64,000 bases of DNA from Chitinophagaceae bacterium IBVUCB1 (lineage in GTDB: Bacteria > Bacteroidota > Bacteroidia > Chitinophagales > Chitinophagaceae), in contig NFUW01000002.1 in NCBI GenBank assembly GCA_002127285.1, positions 381,744-445,743 on the forward strand. Direction: 5' to 3'. The notes under the pieces are model-generated. The model searched no databases. It saw only the letters and a program-made list of their open reading frames with translations, and was not told the origin of the DNA. The position numbers and the translations under genes were made by a program. Of the stretch, positions 17,840 through 41,422 are shown one piece after another. The first letter of the stretch is position 1; every line of letters begins with the position of its first letter.

Positions 17840-19129
17840 TTGCAAAGACAAACAGCAACATTCGACATTGCCGCAGGGCGATACGATATACTGAAACACG
17901 AAATGCTGAACTGGGCACAACAGTTCAGCATTTTTCTTTTTCTTGATAGCAATAGCTATACCGATACGTATAGCCGCTACGAGTGCATGCTGGCCATTGG
18001 CGCGCACGAGCATGTAGCTTTTACTTCATTGGCAGATGTGCAGCAATGGCACGATGCACACAAAGACTGGCTTTTTGGACATATAGCCTACGATTGCAAA
18101 AACGAACTGGAGCCCAAACTATCATCTCGTCACAATGAAAAATTGGCTTTCGCTCCACTGTATTTTTTCTGTCCCGAGATTGTATGTACGGTCAATACAG
18201 ATAAAACAAAACTGACGATAGAGAGTGTGGGTATTACCCCGCTCGAGGTGTATAAGTCTATGCTCTTTGCCATGCCCGATGAAGAACCTGCCCTGCTGCC
18301 CAAATTGTCTTTTACACAGCGTATAGATAAAGCCAAATACCTGCAAACGATAGATGCACTGCGCAGCCACATCAAAGAAGGCGACTGCTACGAAATCAAT
18401 TTTTGCAACGAGGGATATTGCACGGGGGCAGATGTAGCACCGCTGCAAGTCTATTACGCGCTCAATAAATTATCGCCCGCGCCTTTTGCAGCGTTTTACA
18501 GAAATGATGAATCGTACCTAATGTGTGCCAGCCCCGAACGGTATTTGCGCAAAGCGGGTAGTACCATTACATCACAACCCATCAAAGGCACTGCCAAGCG
18601 TGGTGCCGATGCGTTGGAAGACGAAGCGCAGAAACAAGCATTGCAAAACAGCATAAAAGACCGTGCAGAGAATGTGATGATAGCTGACTTGGTGCGCAAC
18701 GATATAGCCCGCAGTTGCGAAACGGGTAGTGTGCGTGCATACGAATTATTTGGCATCTACACCTTTCCGCAAGTACACCAGATGATAAGTACCATCAGCG
18801 GCACACTGCGCAGCGATGCGGTTTTTACAGATGCTATCCGTTACAGCTTCCCGATGGGTAGCATGACGGGCGCACCCAAAATAAAAGTGATGCAACTGAT
18901 AGACAGGTACGAGCAAACCCGCCGCGAATTGTTTGCCGGCACGGTAGGTTATATAACACCTGCTGCTGATTTCGATTTCAACGTCATCATCCGCAGTCTG
19001 TTTTACAATGCCGATGCTCAATACCTGTCTTACCAAACAGGCGGAGCTATTACATACGATAGCACCCCCGAACAGGAATGGGAAGAAATGCGTCTGAAAG
19101 CGTGGGCGTTGGAAAGGATATTTAGTTAG
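17840..19129 (+). CDS. pabB: Aminodeoxychorismate synthase component I / anthranilate synthase-like
   Basis: A chorismate-utilising enzyme of 429 residues, expected to aminate chorismate for p-aminobenzoate (folate). The C-terminal half holds the catalytic blocks CYEINFCNEG, SPERYLR, PIKGTAKRG, DRAENVMIADLVRND, SFPMGSMTGAPK and GGAITYDSTPEQEWEE. I use the TTG at 17840, because the segment TATFDIAAGRYDILKHEMLNWAQQF looks like family sequence; ATG 17903 is the alternative. No trpG/pabA amidotransferase is adjacent. The stop overlaps the convergent lipoprotein gene by 8 bases. Confidence 0.85.
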   Translation: MQRQTATFDIAAGRYDILKHEMLNWAQQFSIFLFLDSNSYTDTYSRYECMLAIGAHEHVAFTSLADVQQWHDAHKDWLFGHIAYDCKNELEPKLSSRHNEKLAFAPLYFFCPEIVCTVNTDKTKLTIESVGITPLEVYKSMLFAMPDEEPALLPKLSFTQRIDKAKYLQTIDALRSHIKEGDCYEINFCNEGYCTGADVAPLQVYYALNKLSPAPFAAFYRNDESYLMCASPERYLRKAGSTITSQPIKGTAKRGADALEDEAQKQALQNSIKDRAENVMIADLVRNDIARSCETGSVRAYELFGIYTFPQVHQMISTISGTLRSDAVFTDAIRYSFPMGSMTGAPKIKVMQLIDRYEQTRRELFAGTVGYITPAADFDFNVIIRSLFYNADAQYLSYQTGGAITYDSTPEQEWEEMRLKAWALERIFS

Positions 19130-19331
19130 TCAGCCTGCAATTATAAGTGCCGTCGTCAGCATTCGGAGGATCATTGCGGGATGTGCATTTTTTCTTAGCT
19201 CTATCTGCATTCATGGCTTTAACAGGTGATGTAAATTCTCCACCCCATCCGCTCTCGCAGGTACAGTTATAAGATTTGCTGCAAGAAGTTAAGAGTAATA
19301 GCGCGACTGCAAGAGGTAGTAGCATCTTCAT
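19122..19331 (-). CDS. Small Cys-rich lipoprotein (family member 1)
   Basis: A 69-residue putative lipoprotein. Its signal peptide ends in a lipobox LLTSC (lipid Cys 17). The mature part is only about 52 residues and contains Cys 23, 25, 49 and 65. The spacing C-x3-Y-x-C-x-C after the lipid Cys and the A-x3-C further on recur exactly in the genes at 26807 and 40118. Four mature cysteines could form two disulfides or bind metal. ATG 19331 is the start; Met 3 is an alternative. The function is unknown. Confidence 0.72.
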   Translation of the reverse strand: MKMLLPLAVALLLLTSCSKSYNCTCESGWGGEFTSPVKAMNADRAKKKCTSRNDPPNADDGTYNCRLTN

Positions 19332-26806: not shown

Positions 26807-27061
26807 TTAATAACGAAGGTCGCAATCGTATTGAACAACTGCTTTCTTCCCCAAATAGTCTTCCTGACGTTCGTAATAAACACATTGTCTTGCTGCATCC
26901 TCTTGATTTACAGAACGTATCGTATTACGCGATGTGGCTTTGTTTACAACCTGTCCGTCAACTACATAGCTGACTTTGCAGGAACATTCATATTCCTTTT
27001 TGCAAGAGCTGAATACCACAAGGGCTAATAGTATAGTAGCAAGGCTGTATATCTTTTTCAC
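26807..27061 (-). CDS. Small Cys-rich lipoprotein (family member 2)
   Basis: An 84-residue putative lipoprotein: signal MKKIYSLATILLALVVFSSC with lipid Cys 20, then KKEYECSC. Mature cysteines are at 26, 28, 60 and 80. The lipid Cys-x3-Tyr-x-Cys-x-Cys spacing, the Ala-x3-Cys (Ala 56, Cys 60) and the C-terminal Cys-Asp-Leu match the products at 19122 and 40118. It is a single-gene unit with its own terminator. The function is unknown; an envelope anchor for disulfide or metal chemistry is one option. Confidence 0.78.
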   Translation of the reverse strand: MKKIYSLATILLALVVFSSCKKEYECSCKVSYVVDGQVVNKATSRNTIRSVNQEDAARQCVYYERQEDYLGKKAVVQYDCDLRY

Positions 27062-35105: not shown

Positions 35106-36044
35106 CTATGGCTTTTGCAGCCATTCTTCTATTGCCGATTGATTGAGCAGTACATAATTGGTTTCTGCCTCTACCCAGCCGTCTTTGATATAGTATATGA
35201 CTGGCCAGCTAAAACCTGCTATGGCTGTAAAATCATCTGCTTTCAGCCGCGTGTATGGTATGTTTTGCGCTTTGGTATTTTTCCAGAAATCAGCAAGATA
35301 TTCGTCTTTGCCTGCAATTATCATGTATAATGGCAGCTTAGGGTTCTTCTGTAGCATGATGTGCATTTTGTAAGCAGCCATACGGCAATGCGGGCAAGAC
35401 AGGCTAAAAAATGCTATTACATGCTTGCCTTTATACAAATCAACCTTTGGTGCATCCGTTTTGCCTGCTGCATACAGAGCAGCCATATCTAACTGGAAAC
35501 GTCCTTTTTTCAGCCATTGTGGTTGGTTGTCGGGTATAGGGTAGTATATGAATGGTGAGGCTACAGCAATCGCACAAACTACTAAAGGTATCCATTTCAA
35601 CGTGCTTACAACCAATTGTTTATGAAGTCTTAGTAACAACCACAAGGCAATAATCAAAAACAGATTTTTGACCAAAGAAGTAGATGGGCTCATCCAGATA
35701 GCATCGCCAAAACAACCGCAATTAATATCGTTGCCTGCATACACCCATAGGTAAACTAAGTATATGCTGAATATGATGGTTAGTAATATGGCAGATTTTA
35801 ATACCCATTTGCCTTTGCCCCAAATATGTGCCATTATCAACACCCCTAAGGCAAATTCAAGCCCTATCAATGCCCTGCCTGCTAATGCCGCCAATAGCCA
35901 AGGTAGCTTTACATATTCTACTATTGTATATTGAAAGCTCTCAAAACTCTCGAGTGTATAAATTTTTGTAAAGGCAGAGTAGATAAACAATGCGCCTACA
36001 GCTACTGAAAGCAGGATAAGTAAAACTGCTGAAACCTTTTTCAT
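35106..36044 (-). CDS. MauE/DoxX membrane domain fused to thioredoxin-like domain (copy 1)
   Basis: A 312-residue inner-membrane protein. Residues 1-165 form a MauE/DoxX-type domain with four or five helices and the Cys pair NCGCFG (about 108-113). After a last membrane segment (about 150-170), a periplasmic thioredoxin-like domain carries SLSCPHCRMAAY (CPHC at 217-220) and a cis-proline in FSWPVIYYI (P281). MauE proteins assist disulfide formation in methylamine dehydrogenase. The fusion suggests electrons pass between the membrane Cys pair and CPHC. It is a paralogue of the product at 39144. The rpsT terminator lies upstream. Confidence 0.82.
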   Translation of the reverse strand: MKKVSAVLLILLSVAVGALFIYSAFTKIYTLESFESFQYTIVEYVKLPWLLAALAGRALIGLEFALGVLIMAHIWGKGKWVLKSAILLTIIFSIYLVYLWVYAGNDINCGCFGDAIWMSPSTSLVKNLFLIIALWLLLRLHKQLVVSTLKWIPLVVCAIAVASPFIYYPIPDNQPQWLKKGRFQLDMAALYAAGKTDAPKVDLYKGKHVIAFFSLSCPHCRMAAYKMHIMLQKNPKLPLYMIIAGKDEYLADFWKNTKAQNIPYTRLKADDFTAIAGFSWPVIYYIKDGWVEAETNYVLLNQSAIEEWLQKP

Positions 36045-37640: not shown

Positions 37641-37856
37641 TTACTCAGCTTTCTTTTCCTTAATACCTGCTTCTATCTCGCTTTTAACGCCCTCTTTAGC
37701 GTCGTTGAACTCGCGGATACCTTTACCTATACCGCGTGCCAATTCTGGGATTTTCCTGCCACCGAAGAATATGATGACAACTAACAATATGATGATCCAC
37801 TCCGCACCACTCGGCATCGAAATCAATAACTGTGGATTAATCGCTGATAATAACAT
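37641..37856 (-). CDS. tatA: Twin-arginine translocase subunit TatA/E
   Basis: TatA oligomerises to make the pore for folded proteins. I use ATG 37856 (71 residues). The short periplasmic N terminus precedes a helix EWIIILLVVIIFFGGRKIPELARGIGKGIREF, with the FGGRKIPELA hinge and amphipathic helix typical of TatA. A Lys/Glu-rich tail ends the protein. An upstream frame to 37886 overlaps the promoter box at 37889. tatC is not next to it. Confidence 0.92.
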   Translation of the reverse strand: MLLSAINPQLLISMPSGAEWIIILLVVIIFFGGRKIPELARGIGKGIREFNDAKEGVKSEIEAGIKEKKAE

Positions 37857-37888
37857 AATCAGTTGTTTTGTGAAATTAACGAACAATA

Positions 37889-39138: not shown

Positions 39139-39146
39139 CAAAGTTA
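39139..39146 (-). promoter_or_regulatory. Promoter box of the pseudouridine synthase gene
   Basis: TAACTTTG on the minus strand, 26 bases upstream of the ATG at 39113, overlapping the stop of the upstream MauE-thioredoxin gene. No good TTG box is visible. Confidence 0.5.
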
Positions 39147-40088
39147 GTCTTTCAGCCAGTCTTTTATATCAGCAGGGTCTAATTGCAGGTAAGTGGCTTC
39201 TCGTTCTATAGTACTGTTATTGATCCAATAGATAGCAGGTACGCCATCGCCTGCCATTTCTCTGAAAGCCTCTGTGTCTTTATACAACAAGAAAGGTAAA
39301 TCGTCTGCTTTAGTTTCTTCAAAAAATTCTTTTTGTTGCGATGGGTGTCCGCTGATAACGAGGTATATCGGTATATCGGGCGATTGTTTTTTGATAATAT
39401 GCAACATATAAGCAGCTTTTCTGCAATGCGGGCAGGTAAGGCTCATATAAGCCACTATGTGTTTGCCATTGCGCAGTTCTTTATTAGGCACATTGGTGCT
39501 GTCGGCATACAATGGTTGCAGGTTGATGGGGGTATTTACTACTTTGGCTTTGTTATTGGCATTAAGTGGGGCAACTATAAACGTAGCTACCAAGCCTACC
39601 ATAGCCAATAAGGCTGCCAGCCATTCCTGATTTTTATAAGGCTTTATGGGGTAGATGAATAGCAGTAATATACAAGACGCAATCATGGCAATGTTCTTCC
39701 AGATAGCCTGCATTGGGTTCATATACAGCCATTCGCCAAAGCAACCGCAGTTGCCCGTATTGCCTTGTTGTATGATGAGTACGACGAGGTAGATGGTGAG
39801 CATGGCTAAGAAGCCAATCGTAATAGGGTAGGTTACTTCTTTCAGGTATATATGAAACAGCAGAAACCCGCCTATCAAAAACTCGATACCAATGAACAGA
39901 TGTGCTATAACCGAGGCCCAAAGTATATTGCCGATACCCATGCCTATGAATGTCCATTCAAATGGTTCAATATCTATCAGCTTGGTAATGGCAGAAATAA
40001 AAAAAACTGCTGCCAATGATAGCAGCAGTAATAAACCTGTGATGCGTTTTATGTAAAATATTGCGTTCTGTCTGTTTGCCTGTGCCAT
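39144..40088 (-). CDS. MauE/DoxX membrane domain fused to thioredoxin-like domain (copy 2)
   Basis: A 314-residue paralogue of the product at 35106. It has four or five helices with GNCGCFGEWLYMNP (NCGCFG at about 113-118), a further helix at about 158-174, then a periplasmic thioredoxin fold with MSLTCPHCRKAAYMLH (CPHC at about 219-222) and cis-proline in DGVPAIYWI (P284). The Cys residues are conserved in both copies while much of the rest differs, which points to redox function. The gene follows the Cys-rich lipoprotein gene (stop 40118) by 29 bases with no terminator between, so the two are likely one operon. Confidence 0.84.
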   Translation of the reverse strand: MAQANRQNAIFYIKRITGLLLLLSLAAVFFISAITKLIDIEPFEWTFIGMGIGNILWASVIAHLFIGIEFLIGGFLLFHIYLKEVTYPITIGFLAMLTIYLVVLIIQQGNTGNCGCFGEWLYMNPMQAIWKNIAMIASCILLLFIYPIKPYKNQEWLAALLAMVGLVATFIVAPLNANNKAKVVNTPINLQPLYADSTNVPNKELRNGKHIVAYMSLTCPHCRKAAYMLHIIKKQSPDIPIYLVISGHPSQQKEFFEETKADDLPFLLYKDTEAFREMAGDGVPAIYWINNSTIEREATYLQLDPADIKDWLKD

Positions 40089-40117
40089 GTGTAGATGGCA
40101 AAAATAGTGATTTCTGT

Positions 40118-40366
40118 TTAGTACAGTTTGCAGGTTTCAACCGACTTGATGCCGTCTTTTTCTGACTGAGAAGAGTTGCTTTCGCATTTGCTGGCAGCTT
40201 TCTTCTTGGTGTCGCTTACCTTGTATTCTTTGATAGTAGTATCTGGCAGACCCGGCTGTCCTGTATATACTATGGTACACTGACAAATATATTCGCGCCT
40301 GCAAGAGCCCAAACCTAACACTAATAATATTGCTAAAGCCAGTAATGTACCGGTACGGATTTTCAT
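40118..40366 (-). CDS. Small Cys-rich lipoprotein (family member 3), upstream of MauE-thioredoxin fusion
   Basis: An 82-residue putative lipoprotein from ATG 40366; a GTG three codons upstream is possible. The signal MKIRTGTLLALAILLVLGLGSC gives lipid Cys 22. RREYICQC places Tyr 26, Cys 28 and Cys 30 at the same offsets as in the products at 19122 and 26807. Cys 61 (with Ala 57 four before it) and Cys 79 complete the pattern. It is the first gene of a probable two-gene unit with the redox fusion at 39144, which makes that protein a natural partner. The function is unknown. Confidence 0.78.
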   Translation of the reverse strand: MKIRTGTLLALAILLVLGLGSCRREYICQCTIVYTGQPGLPDTTIKEYKVSDTKKKAASKCESNSSQSEKDGIKSVETCKLY

Positions 40367-40513
40367 GAAAAACACTATTTAACGGTTGAAGATAAAAGTA
40401 AAAATTCATTTGCACAACTCATAACGGTTTAATTGCATGGGTTTTTTAGCAAAGATTTATTTCATGCTCGGCATATTTAGGCATAATTTTATTGCAAAGC
40501 CACCCCGACAGGC

Positions 40514-41422
40514 ATGATGAATATTACACAACAGAACCTTTCAGACAATCTGGAGCTAATAGCTAAGCAAGTAGTAGAAGGCTTTATTATAGGGCTGCAC
40601 AAAAGTCCGTTTCATGGCTTTTCGGTAGAGTTTGCAGAGCATAGGCTCTATAATCAGGGTGATGCCCTGCGACATGTAGATTGGAAAGTATATGGCCGTA
40701 CCGATAAACTGTTTGTAAAAAAATATGAGGAAGAAACCAACCTGCGTTGTTGTTTAGTGGTAGATACTTCTGCGTCTATGCAGTTTGCAGCAAAAGATGG
40801 CGGAATGCGCAAGATAGACTTTGCCTGCCTTGCTTCAGCAGGGTTGATACAGCTGCTCAAAAGGCAGTTAGACGCATCGGCGTTAGCATTATTCAGCAAC
40901 GGGCTTGATTATTTATCTGATTGCAGAAGCGCACATAGCCACTACAGGATGCTGACTAATGAACTGGAAAAGCAACTGAAAGCCACACCTGCCCAACAGC
41001 CTACCAATGCAGCCAAAGCACTGCACGACGTGGCAGAACAAATGCACCGTCGCTCATTGATTGTGGTTTTTAGCGATATGATGGATGATGCGGAACATAT
41101 TGATGAGCTTTTTGCCGCATTGCAACACCTGAAATACAATAAACATGAGGTGATATTATTCCACATCATGGAAGGCAATAAAGAGGTTGAATTTAACTTT
41201 GATAATCGTCCGTATGAATTTGTGGATATGGAAACTGGCGAGAAACTGAAACTGCAACCGAATCACATCAAAGAGCAATACACACAACAGGTATCGTCAT
41301 TCAGGAAAGAAGTTGAAAACAAATGCCATCAGTATCATATAGATATGGTAGAAGTTGACCTGAGTCAGCCAGTAGAACAGGTGTTGTATGCCTTTTTGCT
41401 GAAAAGAAATAAAATGCTGTAA
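40514..41422 (+). CDS. DUF58 domain protein
   Basis: A 302-residue protein of the DUF58 family, a von Willebrand A-like fold often encoded beside MoxR ATPases. Family blocks are GFSVEFAEHRLYNQGDALRHVDWKVYGRTDKLFVKKYEEE, then LVVDTSASMQF, the MIDAS-like DxSxS metal site, and VVFSDMMDDAEH. No MoxR gene is adjacent here. It has no signal peptide and is probably cytosolic. Met 1 and Met 2 are both possible starts. Confidence 0.88.
   Translation: MMNITQQNLSDNLELIAKQVVEGFIIGLHKSPFHGFSVEFAEHRLYNQGDALRHVDWKVYGRTDKLFVKKYEEETNLRCCLVVDTSASMQFAAKDGGMRKIDFACLASAGLIQLLKRQLDASALALFSNGLDYLSDCRSAHSHYRMLTNELEKQLKATPAQQPTNAAKALHDVAEQMHRRSLIVVFSDMMDDAEHIDELFAALQHLKYNKHEVILFHIMEGNKEVEFNFDNRPYEFVDMETGEKLKLQPNHIKEQYTQQVSSFRKEVENKCHQYHIDMVEVDLSQPVEQVLYAFLLKRNKML

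Follow-up and report, generated by a model that had tools for sequence, protein, structure and literature searches.

A MauE-thioredoxin fusion and its neighbouring CxC lipoprotein in Chitinophagales: a possible thiol oxidase and client

Why should the gene of a short cysteine-rich lipoprotein lie directly upstream of the gene of a membrane protein that carries two thiol motifs of its own? The question was raised by a 64,000-nucleotide stretch of the genome of Chitinophagaceae bacterium IBVUCB1, which we refer to in full as the window. The answer we favour, and to which we give about an even chance, is that the membrane protein, a MauE-thioredoxin fusion, may act as a DsbB/VKOR-like thiol oxidase and that the lipoproteins with a CxC motif may be its clients, receiving two disulfides. 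The following features of the window are referred to in the text:

40118–40366, reverse strand: CxC lipoprotein gene, an ORF of 82 amino acids with the lipobox cysteine Cys22, then C28, C30, C61 and C79
40089–40117, reverse strand: intergenic gap of 29 bases between the lipoprotein stop and the start of fusion A
39144–40088, reverse strand: MauE-thioredoxin fusion A, 314 amino acids; MauE with CGC (C114, C116), a further helix and a TlpA/ResA-like domain with CPHC (C219, C222)
40006–40029, reverse strand: terminator-like hairpin (10-bp stem, 4-nt loop, then T7) inside the coding start of fusion A
35106–36044, reverse strand: fusion B, a 312-amino acid paralog with 34% identity to fusion A, CPHC and CGC kept
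26807–27061, reverse strand: second CxC lipoprotein of the family in the window (profile match)
19122–19331, reverse strand: third CxC lipoprotein of the family in the window (profile match)

The list of ORFs agreed with the first-pass annotation in placing the lipoprotein gene upstream of the fusion gene on one strand, 29 bases away, and the CxC (C28-x-C30) reported for the lipoprotein was present. Divergent from the lipoprotein gene is a DUF58 gene (40514–41422, forward strand), which is kept in many relatives, some of them without a fusion in between. Downstream of the pair, past an RluD-type gene, is a TatA/E-like gene (37641–37886, reverse strand). No mau structural genes were recognised by eye among the ORFs listed for the window.

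The lipoprotein was read from the ATG at 40366 (82 amino acids), an in-frame GTG at 40375 being a possible alternative start. It has the lipobox of bacterial lipoproteins (...LGLGSC22), with Cys22 invariant in 29 orthologs, and lipidation is predicted. Alignment of these 29 sequences revealed C22, Y26, C28, C30, Y34, G39, A57, C61 and C79 to be invariant. A profile of 49 sequences detected nine lipoproteins of the family in this genome (E ≤ 0.001), three of which are in the window; apart from the one upstream of fusion A, the remaining eight adjoin neither fusion. Members share the lipid cysteine, often followed by K-K-D-Y-x, the CxC, then an alanine and a cysteine, and a last cysteine near the C-terminus, with little else in common. 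Among 143 distinct profile hits, none had a substitution in any of the five cysteine columns, where gaps were the only departures; 135 had all five cysteines. The invariant cysteines are therefore the lipid cysteine and an even number, four, in the mature part. No histidine or acidic residue is invariant alongside them, and an aspartate and a glutamate are nearly invariant among close orthologs.

Searches for relatives of the lipoprotein gave little. The window protein matched no Pfam or NCBIfam family at E ≤ 1, the family had no match among PDB sequences at E ≤ 1, and the 49 members scanned singly against Pfam gave scattered weak matches only. The NCBIfam model PG1828 matched 18 of the 49 (best 9.4e-6), but the example inspected reached 18.5 of 50 bits over residues 1–25, which are the signal peptide. 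The structural model, of middling confidence (pLDDT 78.5), has the order strand-strand-helix-strand-strand; Foldseek returned no match at E ≤ 0.001 and the best VIA score was Z 4.1, which falls short of proof of a new fold. The family is multi-copy and apparently undescribed. Small cysteine-rich lipoproteins of a CxxC type, and not CxC, were also seen adjoining tandem CxC genes or a fusion (L242, 2411–2590; L215, 1164–1433).

Analysis of fusion A revealed a match to Pfam MauE (PF07291) of 60.2 bits against a cut-off of 27 (3.3e-16). Neither a VKOR domain (E ≤ 1) nor a DsbB domain was among its Pfam matches, and its score to the BT_3928 family (NF045576), 44.4 bits, lay below the cut-off of 250. 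The AlphaFold model built from 67 sequences (pLDDT 93.0) has a TlpA/ResA-like thioredoxin fold at residues 182–313 (Z 13.1, 3.1 Å over 128 residues to 4grf), an assignment by fold only, the Pfam thioredoxin models remaining below their own cut-offs. Structure matches of this part include TlpA complexes with the copper chaperone Sco. The cysteine motifs are NCGCFG (C114, C116) and CPHC (C219, C222), and C114, C116, C219, H221, C222 and P284 were invariant in the 67 fusion sequences, P284 being at the cis-Pro position of the thioredoxin fold. We take CPHC to be a DsbA-like motif, and the title of PDB 3c71, found in the structure search, calls it so.

Counted in hand-set segments, Lys and Arg occurred at the N-terminus as well as in loops 2 and 4 and were absent from loops 1 and 3. 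This favours an N-in topology in which both the CGC and the CPHC domain face the periplasm, with modest support from so few charges. The first-pass annotation had described NCGCFG as a membrane cysteine pair and CPHC as periplasmic. The pair is present, but it is predicted to lie between the third and fourth long membrane helices, probably on the periplasmic side, and not within a helix. The periplasmic CPHC agrees, with the same modest support, with the loop charges and the AlphaFold model.

Fusions came from surveys of the family (147 genomes), the phylum (395) and the order (248), and from a scan of named genomes (the best 80 of at least 506 relatives). Those with a profile score of at least 240 formed the main group, and fusions with less than 300 bp of upstream DNA were left out. 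A CxC lipoprotein gene was found on the same strand within 300 bp upstream of 86 of the 141 distinct main-group fusions, a sample that includes the best 80 of at least 506 relatives, leaving 55 of 141 with no adjacent CxC lipoprotein; after thinning at 80% identity the proportion was 71/114. None of 26 lower-scoring MauE-thioredoxin-like proteins, which include three from the same order (L078, L235 and L236), had one upstream. These counts include L244, placed in the main group by hand despite its low score, and become 85/140 and 1/27 without it. L244 (3109–4107, family f74) is a strongly diverged MauE-thioredoxin-like gene right after a CxC lipoprotein gene and was missed by the order search at its cut-off. 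In L234 (f68), left out for its short upstream DNA, the CxC lipoprotein gene overlaps the fusion start.

Five near matches were rejected by motif, namely L112 (a spurious ORF), L082, L086, L201 and L215. In L082, L086 and L201 a 169-amino acid lipoprotein without CxC occupies the usual place of the CxC lipoprotein upstream of the fusion, and in L215 another cysteine-rich lipoprotein lies 68 bp upstream. As the CxC filter requires cysteines, cysteine-less variants beside fusions would be missed. Two contigs labelled Azovibrio and Phycisphaerales (L097 and L151) carry fusions of the Chitinophagales kind and are probably mis-binned metagenome contigs.

Pairing was present in families f1, f57, f62, f70, f72 and f74 of the same order and in f7, of the same class but another order. 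The paired lipoproteins were very divergent and numbered from one to at least three in tandem. Among neighbours of at least 100 amino acids within 1.5 kb, no protein family exceeded 26 of the 114 fusions, a count not strictly like that of the lipoproteins, since BLAST clusters defined these neighbours, as against profile and motif for the lipoproteins. The commonest were DUF58 (26/114) and an RluD-type synthase (24/114), which occurred in no coded family except f1; 12 of the DUF58 loci and 13 of the RluD-type loci lack a family label. On a quick tree of 138 MauE-thioredoxin-like proteins, in which 48 of 135 inner branches were weak, the pairing trait changed 18 times. The conserved neighbourhood on which the two-gene proposal depended thus extends well beyond the genus (86/141 vs 0/26), with divergent lipoproteins and in some cases with both fusion paralogs. 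Its recurrence in many distantly related bacteria suggests that lipoprotein and fusion work together.

Fusion B lies about 4 kb from fusion A and in this genome has the S20 gene, and no lipoprotein, as its neighbour. For its relatives in G136, G050, G094 and G033 the distance to an upstream CxC lipoprotein is 53 to 150 bp, so that 4 of the 18 tree rows of the fusion B clade show a CxC lipoprotein directly upstream and 14 do not. One lipoprotein of this genome (L003) resembles, by eye, that beside fusion B in G136, as if it had once been paired with fusion B and was separated here.

The first-pass annotation saw no terminator between the two genes. This is correct for the 29-base gap itself, where nothing terminator-like was found; inside the fusion gene, however, lies a 10-bp stem followed by T7 (40029–40006), a hairpin which in the coding-strand scan begins 59 nt after the A of the fusion A ATG. 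More widely, plain co-transcription of the pair is put in doubt by 36 of 71 thinned pairs, which have a terminator-like site in the gap or in the first part of the second gene (lipoprotein stop to fusion start +150). As controls, stretches later in the same genes gave 11/426 and random stretches of the same lengths 5/426. Since neither control was drawn from gene junctions, which are richer in terminators, the enrichment points to a first gene that is frequently closed by a terminator and not to an unusual arrangement. By hand count on the 138-protein tree, sites outside the fusion A clade (19/24 pairs) were mostly before the start codon, and of those within it (17/47 pairs) 15 fell, like that of the window, in the first part of the coding sequence. 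The clade A protein reads LLLLxLAAVFF at this point, and the hairpin is therefore partly forced by coding. Synonymous shuffles of the first 160 nt of 72 genes gave 4.7 expected sites against 23 observed, although some of the 23 genes probably start farther downstream and the rows share ancestry; the same kind of control for the window fusion gene alone gave P = 0.03 in a single uncorrected test. Similar hairpins with changed bases were seen in relatives, for example L040, L093, L095 and L114.

A terminator-like site at the junction makes equal co-transcription doubtful, and the simplest reading of these sites would be that more lipoprotein than enzyme is made. A Bacteroidota-type promoter consensus gave a weak signal: it occurred upstream of the lipoprotein in 6 of 71 pairs, between the genes in 2 of 71 and in 7 of 870 random windows. 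At the locus described here it was absent from the 150 bases upstream of the lipoprotein gene and present once inside that gene.

The lipoprotein ortholog was found in 31 of the 147 family genomes, each of which also belongs to the 33 that carry a fusion. It lies away from any fusion in 12 of the 31 (5 kb apart in G089) and in several of these 12 it remains beside DUF58 (L039, L042, L060 and L062), which indicates that the lipoprotein does not need the fusion as a neighbour. A ValS tree covering 80 of the 147 family genomes, among them 30 of the 33 with a fusion, shows only two changes each for fusion and lipoprotein; the second change is, for the fusion, a gain in G100 and, for the lipoprotein, its lack in G144 (69% complete). 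The tree yielded two independent pairs (sign test p = 1), too few to reach significance. On this tree the joint presence of both genes in family genomes amounts in essence to a single inherited event and carries little weight. In G100 the fusion clusters with an f62 sequence, in conflict with the position of the species, and a CxC lipoprotein lies 753 bp upstream of it; this single case fits a joint transfer of the two genes.

At order level (E ≤ 1e-6) a CxC lipoprotein was present in 42 of 45 genomes with a fusion and in 19 of 203 without, a comparison that is partly circular because part of the input to profile A3 was lipoproteins adjoining fusions in these very genomes. For this count three of 48 genomes with the MauE part only (G704, G544 and G579) were left out, partial or split fusions (G632, G638, G663 and G674) were kept, and G571 was counted as fusion-less although it holds L244. 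At E ≤ 0.001 the lipoprotein was detected in 48 of the 203 genomes in which no fusion was found. The 19 of 203 argue against an exclusive tie.

DsbB and VKOR are missing or sparse in the family genomes surveyed. DsbB was detected in none of the 147 family genomes at E ≤ 1e-4, in a search whose control was positive in 6 of 14, and the genome described here gave no VKOR match at E ≤ 1e-5; the fusion is therefore a candidate oxidase. VKOR was present in 27 of the 147 and absent from 120. It occurred in 2 of the 33 fusion genomes, compared with 25 of the 114 others. The idea that the fusion replaces VKOR was rejected: 89 of the 147 genomes have neither, so the fusion is not a general substitute, and the tree test was empty. 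A DsbD-type protein, a reducing route, is present in this genome.

We infer the redox direction, the quinone, the client relation and the expression ratio alike, and the scheme would run as follows. The fusion would be an inner-membrane thiol-disulfide catalyst of the MauE (and MauD) kind, acting like DsbB or VKOR together with a DsbA-like domain. Its periplasmic CPHC domain would take electrons from the cysteines of exported proteins and pass them to the CGC pair of MauE, from which they would move on, probably to quinone. The neighbouring CxC lipoprotein would be a client, its four mature cysteines joined pairwise in two disulfides, and family members encoded elsewhere in the genome may be further clients. 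Owing to the terminator-like site early in the enzyme gene, lipoprotein would be produced in large excess over the enzyme.

This oxidase and client reading fits best with four unvarying mature cysteines, a membrane catalyst with CPHC and genomes with no DsbB and mostly no VKOR. Against it stand the nearest folds of the thioredoxin part, TlpA and ResA, which are often reductases, and an electron flow whose direction is unreadable from sequence. The first-pass annotation had proposed a thiol relay, in which the tethered lipoprotein would be a redox carrier shuttling electrons between the fusion in the inner membrane and more distal clients. A CxC can act as a reactive redox pair, and the conserved pairing and invariant cysteines would suit such a carrier; we nevertheless regard it as unlikely, since a carrier needs one reactive pair, yet all four mature cysteines are equally invariant and look structural, and the lipoprotein model has no thioredoxin-like fold among the matches listed and no reliable match at all. 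A dedicated one-to-one relay also sits poorly with nine family members in the genome, eight of them away from both fusions, and with an ortholog that is not beside the fusion in 12 of 31 family genomes.

The same four invariant cysteines could form a site for copper, zinc or a similar metal, with the fusion as a TlpA/ResA-like reductase keeping them metal-ready. The closeness of the thioredoxin part to TlpA/ResA, including the TlpA complexes with Sco, points that way. However, CPHC is an oxidising type of motif, the DsbD-type protein already gives a reducing route, and the cysteines are accompanied by no invariant histidine or acidic residue, though the aspartate and glutamate are almost invariant in close orthologs; we judge a metal site quite improbable. 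It is also very doubtful that the genes lack a functional tie and merely stayed together in a slowly rearranged block. Such a block (DUF58, lipoprotein, fusion, RluD) is indeed kept in many loci of the bacterium's own family, and the two changes each on the ValS tree amount to one inherited event; but other coded families keep a CxC lipoprotein beside the fusion without DUF58 and RluD, the paralogous fusion B has its own in four relatives, and so does the G100 fusion, out of its species position.

In its widest form, the oxidase and client reading would describe a dedicated oxidative system for undescribed multi-copy cysteine lipoproteins in Chitinophagales and their neighbours, with MauE-thioredoxin fusions in the role of DsbB/VKOR, paired with lipoproteins lineage after lineage, and with the ratio of lipoprotein to enzyme set by an intrinsic terminator that one subclade has shifted into the enzyme coding start; this we put forward tentatively, as possible rather than probable. 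A conserved MauE-thioredoxin enzyme with a small partner would be a direct handle on extracytoplasmic disulfide formation in these bacteria. The lipoprotein, with about 60 mature residues, is a defined candidate client for measuring oxidation, reduction or metal loading.

Several known systems resemble the pair in part. VKOR-thioredoxin fusions and DsbB/DsbA combine a helical membrane thiol catalyst with a periplasmic thioredoxin-like domain, and MauD is thioredoxin-like. Fusion A likewise joins a helical membrane thiol catalyst to a periplasmic thioredoxin-like domain, but its membrane part is MauE, with one CGC pair, and not VKOR or DsbB. It shares the fold of TlpA/ResA over residues 182–313 and differs from them in its CPHC motif and in being joined to MauE. 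The BT_3928 family (NF045576) has a MauE-like N-terminal part, and a related longer protein is encoded elsewhere in this genome (L009); fusion A itself scores 44 bits against the cut-off of 250.

The MauE and MauD proteins of methylamine dehydrogenase maturation (van der Palen 1997, as cited in PMC7794033) are alike in pairing a MauE-type membrane domain with a partner, MauD, in the service of a small cysteine-rich exported protein. Here the two are one fused protein, the partner is a lipoprotein with four mature cysteines, and no methylamine dehydrogenase genes were recognised in the window. According to PMC7794033, mauE homologs occur in three Streptomyces candidate RiPP cluster families found by decRiPPter, each of which includes a precursor with eight or more cysteines; one family also has a mauD homolog, and MauE is speculated to form disulfides. 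These clusters are alike in that a mauE homolog adjoins a short cysteine-rich precursor gene, a precedent of the same kind which we counted in favour of an oxidase and its client; they differ in the number of precursor cysteines and in that the portion consulted mentions neither a lipoprotein nor a fused thioredoxin (PMC7794033). No description of the lipoprotein-fusion pair was found in searches of one open-licence library.
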